A stretch of 64,000 bases of DNA from Bdellovibrio bacteriovorus W. GTDB lineage: Bacteria; Bdellovibrionota; Bdellovibrionia; Bdellovibrionales; Bdellovibrionaceae. Under the pieces are notes generated by a model. That model did no database searches, had not been told where the DNA came from, and saw only the letters and a program-made list of their open reading frames with translations. The stretch spans positions 868,001 through 932,000 of the forward strand of contig CP002190.1 in the NCBI GenBank assembly GCA_000525675.1, read 5' to 3'. This document shows, piece after piece, positions 30,120-33,413 of the stretch. The position numbers and the translations under genes are program-made. Within the stretch, counting starts at the first letter, position 1; every line of letters starts with the position of its first letter.

Positions 30120-31652
30120 TCACAAATACTGGGGGGAGATGTTTAAGATTTCGAACCCCTGTTTTCTCCAATTGAATTCCGCCTCTAGAGCTGCAAATAA
30201 ATTTATCAAGCTGACATTGACGATGCTGCTACGAAGTAGATTTTTATTAAGGATGATTTTGTTTTTATCCTTAAATGCCTTTCTCTTTAATTCTATATTC
30301 CTAATGTCGTCGAGAGTGATTTTAATGGGCTTGTTTTCTAGATGATGGAATTGTTGTTCTAAGATTAAATCCCAGAAACCATTATAATCAAAGCTTTCTG
30401 GATCTTTGATCATCATAGAATTTTTAAACTGACTTAAAACTGCCTCTTTATCTTTTCGCAAGATTGCGGAGTACATTCGCTTTTCATTTTGTACGTCGGA
30501 AGGGTCTAATTCGATGACTCTGCCGAAGTCCAAGAAAATCACTTGATTGGGTCGGAATAAAAAGTTTCCAGGGTGTGGGTCCGAATGCATTATATTCTTT
30601 TCGAAGATAGAAAAGCTATGAAAGTAAGATATTAATTGGCCAGCTTGATTTCTTTCGCCTGACGATGAGCGGGTCTTAAACGCATCAAAAGAAAGACCTG
30701 GTTCAAGTTGTGAAACTAAAATACTTTCGCGACAAAGATCGTTTAAAACCCGAGGTATCACAATACGGGGTTCGTGCATAAAGTTTTTTCTAAAAATATT
30801 TTGAAAATGAGCTTCGCGTTTGTAGTCTAACTCTAGCATCACCTGAGTTTGGATGTCGTTCAGAACTTCATCTAAAGAACTCCCAAATATTTTCTTTAAA
30901 GTATTTAAGATAGATAGAGTTTTGAACTGCTTTGATAGAACTTCGTTAATTTTAGGATGTCGAATCTTAAGGACCACAGTTTCGCCAGAGAGTGTCGTCG
31001 CAAGGTGAAGCTGCGCAATGCTTGTTACTCGGAAGGGTTCTTTGTTAACCTTAGAAAAGTATTTGGAGTGATCTCCTTCATAGGCCTCGAATAAAATGTT
31101 CTGAATGATCGAAAACGGCAAAGGTTTAACATTAGATAGCAATTCCCCTAAAAGAACGGGTATTTCTGCAGGTAGGCCACCATCGACAAATGCAGCAATC
31201 TGCGCAACCTTGATAGCAAGACCACGTGATCCATCAAAAGATTTTATGATTTGTCGAGCAATAGCTACTTTGAGTTTATCCAAGACAGGATCTGAATTCC
31301 CAGTATTTTTGAAAGAGTGTTTTACCAGATATGAAATGCTGGACATGCTGTCTTTGGAGACAAAGATTCCTTCAGCCTTTAAAGATTGCACAATAGAAGA
31401 GAGCAAATCTCTGGAGTGATCTATGGACTCGGTCGAAATACAGCTTTGCGATCTATTGAGTGTTTGAATATTTGCTTCATAGATTTCAATGAGTTTAATA
31501 ATGGGGCCGGGGACAGGGCGTTTGCCTGATTCCCATTGGGCGATAGCTCCACAAGTGACTTGAAACTCATCCGCAAGATCTCGCTGAGAGTAGTCTAAAT
31601 AATCTCTTAGTTTTTTAAGGCGGATGGCTTCGTTGGATAAACTCATTTCCAT
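30120..31652 (-). CDS. XRE-HTH fused to ABC1/UbiB-type atypical kinase
   Basis: A 510-aa fusion. Residues about 8-60 are a classic XRE/Cro helix-turn-helix (LRDYLDYSQRDLADEFQVTCGAIAQWESGK). Residues about 130-450 are an ABC1 (UbiB/ADCK) protein-kinase-like domain: KVAQ (148-151, KxGQ in most relatives), SIAQLH (211-216, the Ala-rich nucleotide loop), VVLK (K229), ELDYKREA (E274), HSDPHPGN (356-363) and LDFG (374-377). All nucleotide-binding and catalytic elements are kept apart from Gly-to-Ala in KxGQ. There is no C-terminal TM. A DNA-binding regulator controlled by an ATPase/kinase domain is a reasonable inference. Start M1 or M3 is unresolved; no SD stands out. Confidence 0.85.
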   Translation of the reverse strand: MEMSLSNEAIRLKKLRDYLDYSQRDLADEFQVTCGAIAQWESGKRPVPGPIIKLIEIYEANIQTLNRSQSCISTESIDHSRDLLSSIVQSLKAEGIFVSKDSMSSISYLVKHSFKNTGNSDPVLDKLKVAIARQIIKSFDGSRGLAIKVAQIAAFVDGGLPAEIPVLLGELLSNVKPLPFSIIQNILFEAYEGDHSKYFSKVNKEPFRVTSIAQLHLATTLSGETVVLKIRHPKINEVLSKQFKTLSILNTLKKIFGSSLDEVLNDIQTQVMLELDYKREAHFQNIFRKNFMHEPRIVIPRVLNDLCRESILVSQLEPGLSFDAFKTRSSSGERNQAGQLISYFHSFSIFEKNIMHSDPHPGNFLFRPNQVIFLDFGRVIELDPSDVQNEKRMYSAILRKDKEAVLSQFKNSMMIKDPESFDYNGFWDLILEQQFHHLENKPIKITLDDIRNIELKRKAFKDKNKIILNKNLLRSSIVNVSLINLFAALEAEFNWRKQGFEILNISPQYL

Positions 31653-31700
31653 ATGTAATCACAAGTTTTGCAGAATGTAGAAGATATTTTCATTCAAAGA

Positions 31701-31724
31701 AGGCAGAACCGAAAGGTTCTGCCT
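31701..31724. terminator. Hairpin downstream of the 494-aa lipoprotein gene
   Basis: A perfect 10-bp stem (AGGCAGAACC / GGTTCTGCCT) with a GAAA loop. The T tract on the minus strand is weak. It lies between two minus-strand genes and probably ends the 31765-33249 transcript. Confidence 0.55.
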
Positions 31725-31764
31725 TAGTTAAATTCTAAGAGCTGAATTCTTTATCGTAATCTGA

Positions 31765-33249
31765 CTATTTAGAAAGATTAACAAAGATCTTGCGGCCAGA
31801 AAGCTCATCATAAAACCAAGTCGTCGGATCAGTCGCACAGCGAGGATCTTGACCTGGTTTTAAGACAGAGGTGAAGTCTACTTGTAATGTTGCTTTTGAT
31901 TTAGAGACTTGAGTGATCGTAAAGGTGTGTGTGCGAACGATATGGCAGTCTGCTCTATCATCACCTTCGCCCACGTGCCCTGTGTCCTCTTCAGTCTGTG
32001 AGGTTGTTCCCATGTTTCCAGAGATCACAAGTTCCGAGTGAAGGAAGCGTTCCCGTGGATAGAACTCGAGGCCGCACATGCCATCTGTTGCGCAGGCAGA
32101 GCCATCCAGAATAGGAGCTAAATCGTTCGGATAGTCGCGAAGACGATAGTCACACGAAGTTCCAAAATCGAATTGAACATTTTTGTTGCCGCCTGATTTC
32201 AGTGAACTCAGAGTGCAGCTAAGCCCAGCAATTTCTTGCTCTTCAATAGGTACGTTCTGAATCAACTCATAGCAGTTTTTTGCGGCCTTACACTGGGTCT
32301 CGTCGACGCCGTGGCAGTTGTCGTCATTTCCGTATTTGGAGTAAGCGAACTTGGCATTTTTTAGATCATTCTCACTGAGATTGCTAAGATCTAAACTAAA
32401 GGGAGCTCGCTGTCCAGCTTGGGCGGGAGAAAATGTGTAGCCAGCAGCTGCCAAGCCCTCTTTTCCGCCACAGTGATCAAACGCGGATTTAGTTTTCCAA
32501 ACCGTAGAGATGTCTGAAGTGGACTGATCTGCTGTGTTAGTGGCGGTAATCTTTTGATTGAAATAGATTTTTTGCTTCCACTCATTTTTACACGCTGTTA
32601 GCTCAGCAGGATTTAACTCGTCCATATCACAAGGATGAATAAAACCATTTCCGGTGATTGGCGTCGCAGACCATTCTCCCTTCATATCATAGAACTCCAC
32701 TTCCTGGCCTGTGGAGCCATTGTCATTGATATTATCTTTATTGACGATGGCAATACTAAAACCTCCTACTGTAGCGATAGCAATAGTACCTAGCTTCAAG
32801 CTAGTAGAGCCCGGCTTTGGAGCATAACCCAAAAGCTGCTGGGAACCACCGTAGATTGAATCTTTCGCACCAAATGAAATAGGCATAGACGGAATGCCGT
32901 CTACGAAGATCCAGCATCCGAGCGAAGCACCTTCTTCCATGCCTTTCATCTGTAAAGAAAATGCGCCCGTGGTGGCATGTATAGCTCCTTCGCCAGCCAC
33001 TAGAGGGCCTGAGCCAGGGACGCAGCGAACTTTTTTTTCTTCACCTGCAAAACTTGAGAAATCATTGGGACCGAATATTTTCATGCTGAAGCCGGAAGCT
33101 CCTACGCTTGTGTCGATCTGTCCCTCTATGGATAGGTTTTTTGTTTGAATAGGTGGGGAATTCGGAGAGTTTGGTGACTCCGAACAAGCTGTTGCTAGAG
33201 CCACAGCCCCTGCCAGTGTTAAAGATTTCAGTATCCACATACGCCCCAT
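31765..33249 (-). CDS. Large lipoprotein, unknown
   Basis: A 494-aa protein with signal and lipobox ATAC (C22). A Ser/Pro/Asn-rich spacer is followed by a Cys-rich body with about 18 Cys, for example FIHPCDMDEL, TACKNEW, FDHCGGK, DNCHG, TQCKAAKNCYE and ACATDGMCG. This suggests many disulfides and exposure outside the cytoplasm. An early beta-rich region (about 38-170; LSIEGQIDTSVGASGFSMKIFGP) may be a separate domain. No family is recognised. Lipoprotein sorting to the outer membrane surface is plausible. It follows the PLD-like gene on the same strand, with a palindrome between them. Confidence 0.72.
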   Translation of the reverse strand: MGRMWILKSLTLAGAVALATACSESPNSPNSPPIQTKNLSIEGQIDTSVGASGFSMKIFGPNDFSSFAGEEKKVRCVPGSGPLVAGEGAIHATTGAFSLQMKGMEEGASLGCWIFVDGIPSMPISFGAKDSIYGGSQQLLGYAPKPGSTSLKLGTIAIATVGGFSIAIVNKDNINDNGSTGQEVEFYDMKGEWSATPITGNGFIHPCDMDELNPAELTACKNEWKQKIYFNQKITATNTADQSTSDISTVWKTKSAFDHCGGKEGLAAAGYTFSPAQAGQRAPFSLDLSNLSENDLKNAKFAYSKYGNDDNCHGVDETQCKAAKNCYELIQNVPIEEQEIAGLSCTLSSLKSGGNKNVQFDFGTSCDYRLRDYPNDLAPILDGSACATDGMCGLEFYPRERFLHSELVISGNMGTTSQTEEDTGHVGEGDDRADCHIVRTHTFTITQVSKSKATLQVDFTSVLKPGQDPRCATDPTTWFYDELSGRKIFVNLSK

Positions 33250-33382: not shown

Positions 33383-33413
33383 ATAAGAGCGCTCACACTG
33401 TGAGCGCTCTTAT
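33383..33413. terminator. 31-bp near-perfect palindrome, probable terminator of the PLD-like gene
   Basis: Arms of 15 nt (ATAAGAGCGCTCACA / TGTGAGCGCTCTTAT) flank a single C. The minus strand continues with CGTTTTCCTGTTT, so it can work as a terminator for the upstream PLD-like gene. The exact symmetry would also suit a dimeric protein site. Confidence 0.6.

Follow-up and report, generated by a model that had tools for sequence, protein, structure and literature searches.

The window analysed here, a stretch of 64,000 nucleotides from Bdellovibrio bacteriovorus W, contains a gene that joins an N-terminal XRE helix-turn-helix (HTH) to an ABC1/UbiB-type atypical kinase, and this XRE-ABC1 fusion is probably a real, previously undescribed kind of gene regulator. 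A preliminary description, made from the sequence alone, had proposed that an intact XRE HTH and a complete ABC1 core were joined in one 510-aa frame, and both the open reading frame and Pfam analysis bore this out. The gene and the parts of its product are located in the window as follows:

30120..31652, minus strand: XRE-ABC1 fusion gene, 510 aa, ATG start (ORF, Pfam and homologue alignments)
31464..31625, minus strand: XRE helix-turn-helix, residues ~10-63 (Pfam HTH_3, AlphaFold2 helices and conservation)
31293..31463, minus strand: variable helical linker of low model confidence, residues 64-120 (pLDDT and conservation)
31185..31220, minus strand: KxGQ-equivalent segment, residues 145-156, with KVAQ at 148-151 (family alignment)
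30432..31142, minus strand: ABC1/UbiB atypical kinase core, residues 171-407 (Pfam PF03109, PDB sequence matches and Foldseek)
30123..30431, minus strand: C-terminal helical part, residues 408-510 (hydropathy and AlphaFold2 model)

Pfam analysis of the window protein placed HTH_3 at residues 12-55, barely over threshold (23.6 bits, cut-off 23), and HTH_19 under its cut-off (25.1 bits, cut-off 30.2). In agreement with an HTH of the XRE type, HTH_3 and ABC1 were both matched at E <= 0.01 in 11/11 family members aligned and scanned. MqsA-type antitoxin HTH models matched 5/11 of these members, and the RIO1 model weakly matched 3/11. The ABC1 domain (PF03109) was recognised at residues 171-407 with 161.5 bits (cut-off 22.9). 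The UbiB equivalog TIGR01982 (NCBIfam) scored 129.3 bits, so far under its cut-off of 487.55 that the window protein is to be regarded as a member of the ABC1 superfamily and not as UbiB itself. By sequence, the closest solved structures in the PDB were Rv3197, MSMEG_1954 and COQ8A. No hydrophobic stretch of transmembrane strength was detected in the fusion (highest 19-residue Kyte-Doolittle mean, 1.34), and the C-terminal membrane helices of the UbiB type were not seen: the C-terminus modelled by AlphaFold2 is helical and has no hydrophobic span. The genome coding for the fusion contains two other ABC1 genes, one for a 575-aa protein with hydrophobic segments at its end and one for a 465-aa protein.

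The AlphaFold2 model of the window fusion (mean pLDDT 78.9, pTM 0.73) was fairly confident for the HTH, of low confidence for the helical linker and very confident for the kinase core. The HTH helices were modelled at residues 7-19, 23-30, 34-42 and 49-63, with block pLDDT values of 79-87 over residues 11-60. In the linker (residues 64-120), which is poorly conserved and varies in length among family members, block pLDDT fell to 45-60, and with this low-confidence linker the model gives no interface for judging the coupling between HTH and kinase. Foldseek searches with the model returned 4ped (COQ8A) as the top match, TM-scores normalised by target length being 0.69-0.83 against ABC1-family structures, and RIO kinases came next after the ABC1 proteins.

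The kinase motifs of the preliminary description were in large part confirmed by alignments: KVAQ, SIAQLH (211-216), K229, HSDPHPGN (356-363) and LDFG (374-377) stood, but E274, listed with them, is the glutamate of UbiB's ExD motif (E274-L-D276), the αC partner in the Lys-Glu pair being E280. The kinase residues of the window fusion are K229, E274/D276, E280, D358, N363 and D375, and K229, E280, D358, N363 and D375 are invariant across the alignment of the fusion family. It had also been suggested that the Gly-to-Ala replacement in KxGQ was a notable feature. This did not hold, because the third residue varies within the family (Ala in 4/13 fusions, Ile in 3/13 and Gly in 6/13) around an invariant Lys and Gln; Ala occupies this position in 2/21 of the non-fusion ABC1 proteins examined as well. 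The related argument, that an equivalent change in ADCK3 alters nucleotide preference, referred to the wrong site: the ADCK3 substitution A339G, which reverses the preference for ADP and permits autophosphorylation (PMC4718504, PMC7877690, PMC7263595), sits in the Ala-rich loop, and removing the KxGQ part merely enhances the effect of A339G (PMC4718504). The Ala-rich loop itself (AAAS) is retained in several fusions and reads VTS in the three members from the genus and GVGS in three others; in our own alignment, the position equivalent to A339 is Thr in the three fusions of the genus. The fusions at L022, L023 and L045 were observed to have Gly at the position aligned with COQ8A A339, the replacement by which ADCK3 comes to favour ATP and autophosphorylation.

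The architecture is not confined to the window. Full-length orthologues with 49-52% identity are coded by two genomes of the same genus (G016 and G019), the fusion being missing from the remaining 21 genomes of the genus. A profile built from these three members detected more full-length fusions across the phylum; in all, ten genomes besides the three in the genus contain the fusion. Conservation of the fusion across genomes, which the preliminary description had put forward for checking, was thus verified: 13/369 Bdellovibrionota genomes, from several families, carry it. With an eleven-member profile these 13 genomes scored at least 464 bits and the next one 316, a gap that arises partly by construction, as the profile includes most of the 13 members. 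No fusion was found in 398 sampled Pseudomonadota genomes, a sample lacking any positive control. A scan of GTDB contigs with one narrow HTH pattern revealed fusions in records assigned to Bdellovibrionales, Bdellovibrio, Oligoflexia and Bacteriovoracaceae and in one Deltaproteobacteria-titled contig (compare G357), together with a stand-alone HTH gene (L047).

The HTH signature of the family (SQRxLAxEFxV..GAIxxWExGxRxIPGPVxKLI) is conserved across deep divergence. When 34 ABC1 domains were placed in a tree, one cluster with 98/99 support took in each of the 13 fusions included; strict monophyly of the fusions was not shown, two long-branch ABC1 proteins without an HTH being nested among them. 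The fusions of G227 and G314 are cut off by contig ends, and in G271 a frameshift together with a stop codon disrupts the HTH frame (L020:1420-1600) with the ABC1 part still open, which may reflect decay or an assembly error. A frame or assembly artefact as the origin of the window gene was ruled out by the full-length orthologues in the genus and the occurrence of the fusion in ten further genomes. A mobile origin was likewise rejected: the best plasmid and phage matches spanned the kinase part only, with no match to the HTH, and viral contigs gave only weak matches to the HTH part.

Inspection of the regions upstream of the fusion genes revealed recurrent palindromes with a 1-bp centre, and alignment of the sites gave a consensus of about TGCTYACAnTGTRAGCA. 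The ACAnTGT core is present within 250 bp upstream of 9/13 fusion genes, against an expectation of 0.67 on average (maximum 4) over 1000 dinucleotide shuffles, 8/166 neighbouring genes at the same loci and 0/21 non-fusion ABC1 genes; these counts are not formal probabilities, because inspection preceded the definition of the motif and G306, G314 and G316, which supply three of the nine, are close relatives. Several copies lie near the start codon, on its upstream side, and have no T-run. In the window, G019 and G261, the 250 bp ahead of the fusion gene gave no copy. The stand-alone HTH gene at L047, which has no ABC1 part and was found through HTH similarity alone (60% identity), carries the palindrome twice in its divergent promoter region (TGCTTACAATGTATGCA and TGCTTACAATGTAAGTA), indicating that the site is tied to this type of HTH and not to the kinase. 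Recognition of palindromic DNA by the XRE domain is, as a prediction from these sequences, well supported, and the recurrence of the palindrome both with the fusions and at L047 favours the earlier proposal of a transcription factor regulated through a kinase-like domain. At L047:2078-5195 the HTH gene is flanked by a reverse transcriptase gene and by a gene with a weak match to nucleoside deoxyribosyltransferases, a neighbourhood resembling a mobile or defence-type region.

In the window, the fusion gene is preceded by a gene for a putative lipoprotein, and the copy of the palindrome is located upstream of the latter:

31765..33249, minus strand: lipoprotein gene with a lipobox-like LATAC, candidate target and partner (no Pfam match)
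33391..33405, no strand assigned: operator-like palindrome GCTCACACTGTGAGC, intergenic, upstream of the lipoprotein gene (same type of palindrome as at fusion genes elsewhere)
31700..31725, minus strand: perfect inverted repeat AAGGCAGAACCTTTCGGTTCTGCCTT between the lipoprotein and fusion genes

The AAGGCAGAACCTTTCGGTTCTGCCTT repeat, presumably the terminator of the lipoprotein gene, was not among the sites returned by a consensus terminator scan. The sequence CGCTCACACTGTGAGCG at 33390-33406 is the sole near-perfect ACAnTGT palindrome within the 64-kb window, and GCTCACACTGTGAGC is matched exactly nowhere else in the genome (3.0 Mb). The palindrome sits within a longer inverted repeat (33383-33413) that forms a 14-pair hairpin with a terminator-like score in the terminator scan; this hairpin may serve the upstream PLD gene as its terminator. 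The fusion of G019 adjoins a convergently oriented gene for a homologous lipoprotein (34-38% identity), and upstream of this lipoprotein gene GCTTACAGTGTAAGC comes directly after a separate terminator-like hairpin with a T-run. Among 24 genomes of the genus, matches to the lipoprotein at E <= 1e-8 were restricted to the window's genome and G019, and no comparable palindrome was found at distant homologues detected by profile search in genomes without the fusion.

Comparison with G023 delimited this locus: there, the stop codon of the PLD gene follows that of hslO by 2 bp, whereas in the window the lipoprotein gene, the fusion gene and the palindrome all lie between hslO and the PLD gene. By this comparison of gene order, the lipoprotein-fusion pair behaves as an accessory unit that would have been gained in the window's genome or lost in G023. 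A conserved operon was rejected after an all-against-all comparison of neighbouring genes: leaving aside the closely related pair G306 and G316 and two isolated matches at a distance from the fusion, the lipoprotein common to the window and G019 was the only shared neighbour. A regulon within the window's own genome was also discarded: in a search allowing <=3 mismatches, most of the sites inspected were inside genes. One further intergenic candidate, GATCACATTGTGAGC, with one mismatch (G000:C1:1750120-1750134; L129:1501-1515), occurs at about chance level and is a possible second target or a chance match. On either side of this site are divergent genes whose products are apparently secreted, one of them with a BON domain.

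The reading that we favour, and hold to be somewhat better than even, is that the fusion is a soluble, mostly autogenous one-component regulator in which the ABC1 domain serves as a nucleotide or ligand module. The computations establish the domains, that their fusion and the catalytic residues are conserved, and that the site recurs with the HTH type; dimerisation, repression rather than activation, control by nucleotide or ligand and the identity of the ligand are inferred. The XRE domain, probably as a dimer, would bind a palindrome of ~15-17 bp (TGCTYACAnTGTRAGCA). In most lineages the predicted site is upstream of the fusion's own gene, which would result in autogenous control, and in the window and G019 it instead precedes the neighbouring lipoprotein gene, which accompanies the fusion. 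Nucleotide, and probably also a small hydrophobic compound, would bind to the ABC1 domain, whose state would alter DNA binding. Analogues of quinone intermediates stimulate the ATPase activity of COQ8 and UbiB (PMC7263595); it is thus plausible that the ABC1 domain binds a ligand, and a hydrophobic one is suggested. Counting against this reading are the hairpin around the window's palindrome, the lack of a copy upstream of the fusion genes in the window, G019 and G261, the recognition of the motif only after inspection, the relatedness of three of the nine loci, the marginal HTH_3 score of the window protein and the low-confidence linker. A more specific version, according to which this is an undescribed family whose XRE domain is switched by a UbiB-type kinase sensing nucleotide and a lipid or quinone, controlling itself and, in the genus, an accessory lipoprotein, is advanced tentatively and at rather less than even chances.

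Of the other explanations considered, one has the fusion act as an ABC1 enzyme (an ATPase or a small-molecule kinase) whose HTH merely sets its own expression, in the manner of trigger enzymes such as PutA or BirA, so that the product and not sensing would be the point. The full retention of the catalytic residues, the location of the site in the gene's own upstream region in most genomes and the lack of any gene family recurring beside the fusion across lineages all agree with it; the site at the lipoprotein gene in two Bdellovibrio-group genomes does not, nor does any pathway neighbour hint at a substrate, and we regard it as unlikely, though it is the strongest of the alternatives. It is far less probable that the palindromes are terminators or chance occurrences and the fusion a relic without regulatory function. 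The fusion is certainly rare and in one case frame-broken, and the window copy of the palindrome is a strong hairpin, but the frequency of the palindrome is far over that in shuffled sequences and neighbouring genes, several copies close upstream of a start codon have no T-run, the copy in G019 comes after a separate terminator, and the HTH residues have been conserved over deep divergence.

Recruitment of the HTH to RNA or a ribonucleoprotein, as with the winged HTH of RIO2 kinases, and with ABC1 as an ATPase switch on the particle, would be in line with RIO kinases being the next structural matches in Foldseek and with the weak RIO1 matches in three of eleven members; we give it very little credence, as the recurrent palindrome, with copies also at the stand-alone HTH gene, speaks for binding to double-stranded DNA. 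An equally faint prospect is a fused toxin-antitoxin-like unit, similar to HipBA with its XRE antitoxin and kinase-like toxin, or a defence gene. An XRE domain joined to a kinase-like fold, the MqsA-type matches in five members, the reverse transcriptase gene near the relative at L047 and the patchy distribution would fit such a unit; against it, the kinase part is ABC1 and not HipA, no partner gene recurs, and defence models gave weak matches to the HTH part only. A defence system as such was discarded, no specific match to defence models having been obtained.

No report of the XRE-ABC1 architecture was found in the open-licence literature, and we know of no UbiB-family protein that acts on DNA. 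To our knowledge, a one-component regulator with an ABC1 effector domain is new, and this role has not been described before. It has long been asked what the proteins of the UbiB family respond to, and a member with a built-in DNA-binding domain and an operator predicted for it would offer a direct transcriptional read-out for ligands and for mutants of the nucleotide site.

Other unusual ABC1 arrangements were seen in the course of this analysis. In G057 (L007:85-2649), from the same family of bacteria, an ABC1 domain is located behind an AMP-binding domain of the acyl-CoA synthetase type, and G029 contains a 1068-aa ABC1 frame of similar length. A 745-aa protein of G276 (L025:454-2691) has about 400 unrecognised residues ahead of its ABC1 domain. 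Several Moraxella phage records (KR093633 and others) contain ABC1-like genes, hypothetical or unannotated, near the record ends, which are possibly host flank.

Compared with known systems, the fusion shares with the ABC1/AarF/UbiB family (COQ8A/ADCK3, Rv3197/MABP-1 and MSMEG_1954) the KxGQ Lys and Gln, the ExD, HxDxHxGN and DFG motifs and the fold, but it adds an N-terminal XRE domain, shows no UbiB-type C-terminal transmembrane helices, has Ala or Ile for the Gly of KxGQ in 7/13 cases and has VTS in place of the Ala-rich loop in the three members from the genus. It differs from HipBA in having neither the HipA kinase fold nor a recurring partner gene. RIO2 kinases combine a winged HTH with an atypical kinase and act on pre-ribosomes. 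The fusion resembles them in its N-terminal HTH on an atypical kinase, RIO being the nearest fold after ABC1, but its HTH is of the XRE type and is associated with a DNA palindrome. PutA and BirA are enzymes with a DNA-binding domain that exert autogenous control. The likeness to them lies in a DNA-binding domain on an enzyme-like module and a predicted site at its own promoter, whereas the folds differ, the enzyme is unrelated and the regulation by the fusion is a prediction. With XRE/HTH_3 one-component regulators (DicA- and MqsA-like) it has in common the HTH_3 domain and an operator-like palindrome upstream of its own gene; in the fusion, however, the effector is an ABC1 atypical kinase instead of a known sensor domain.
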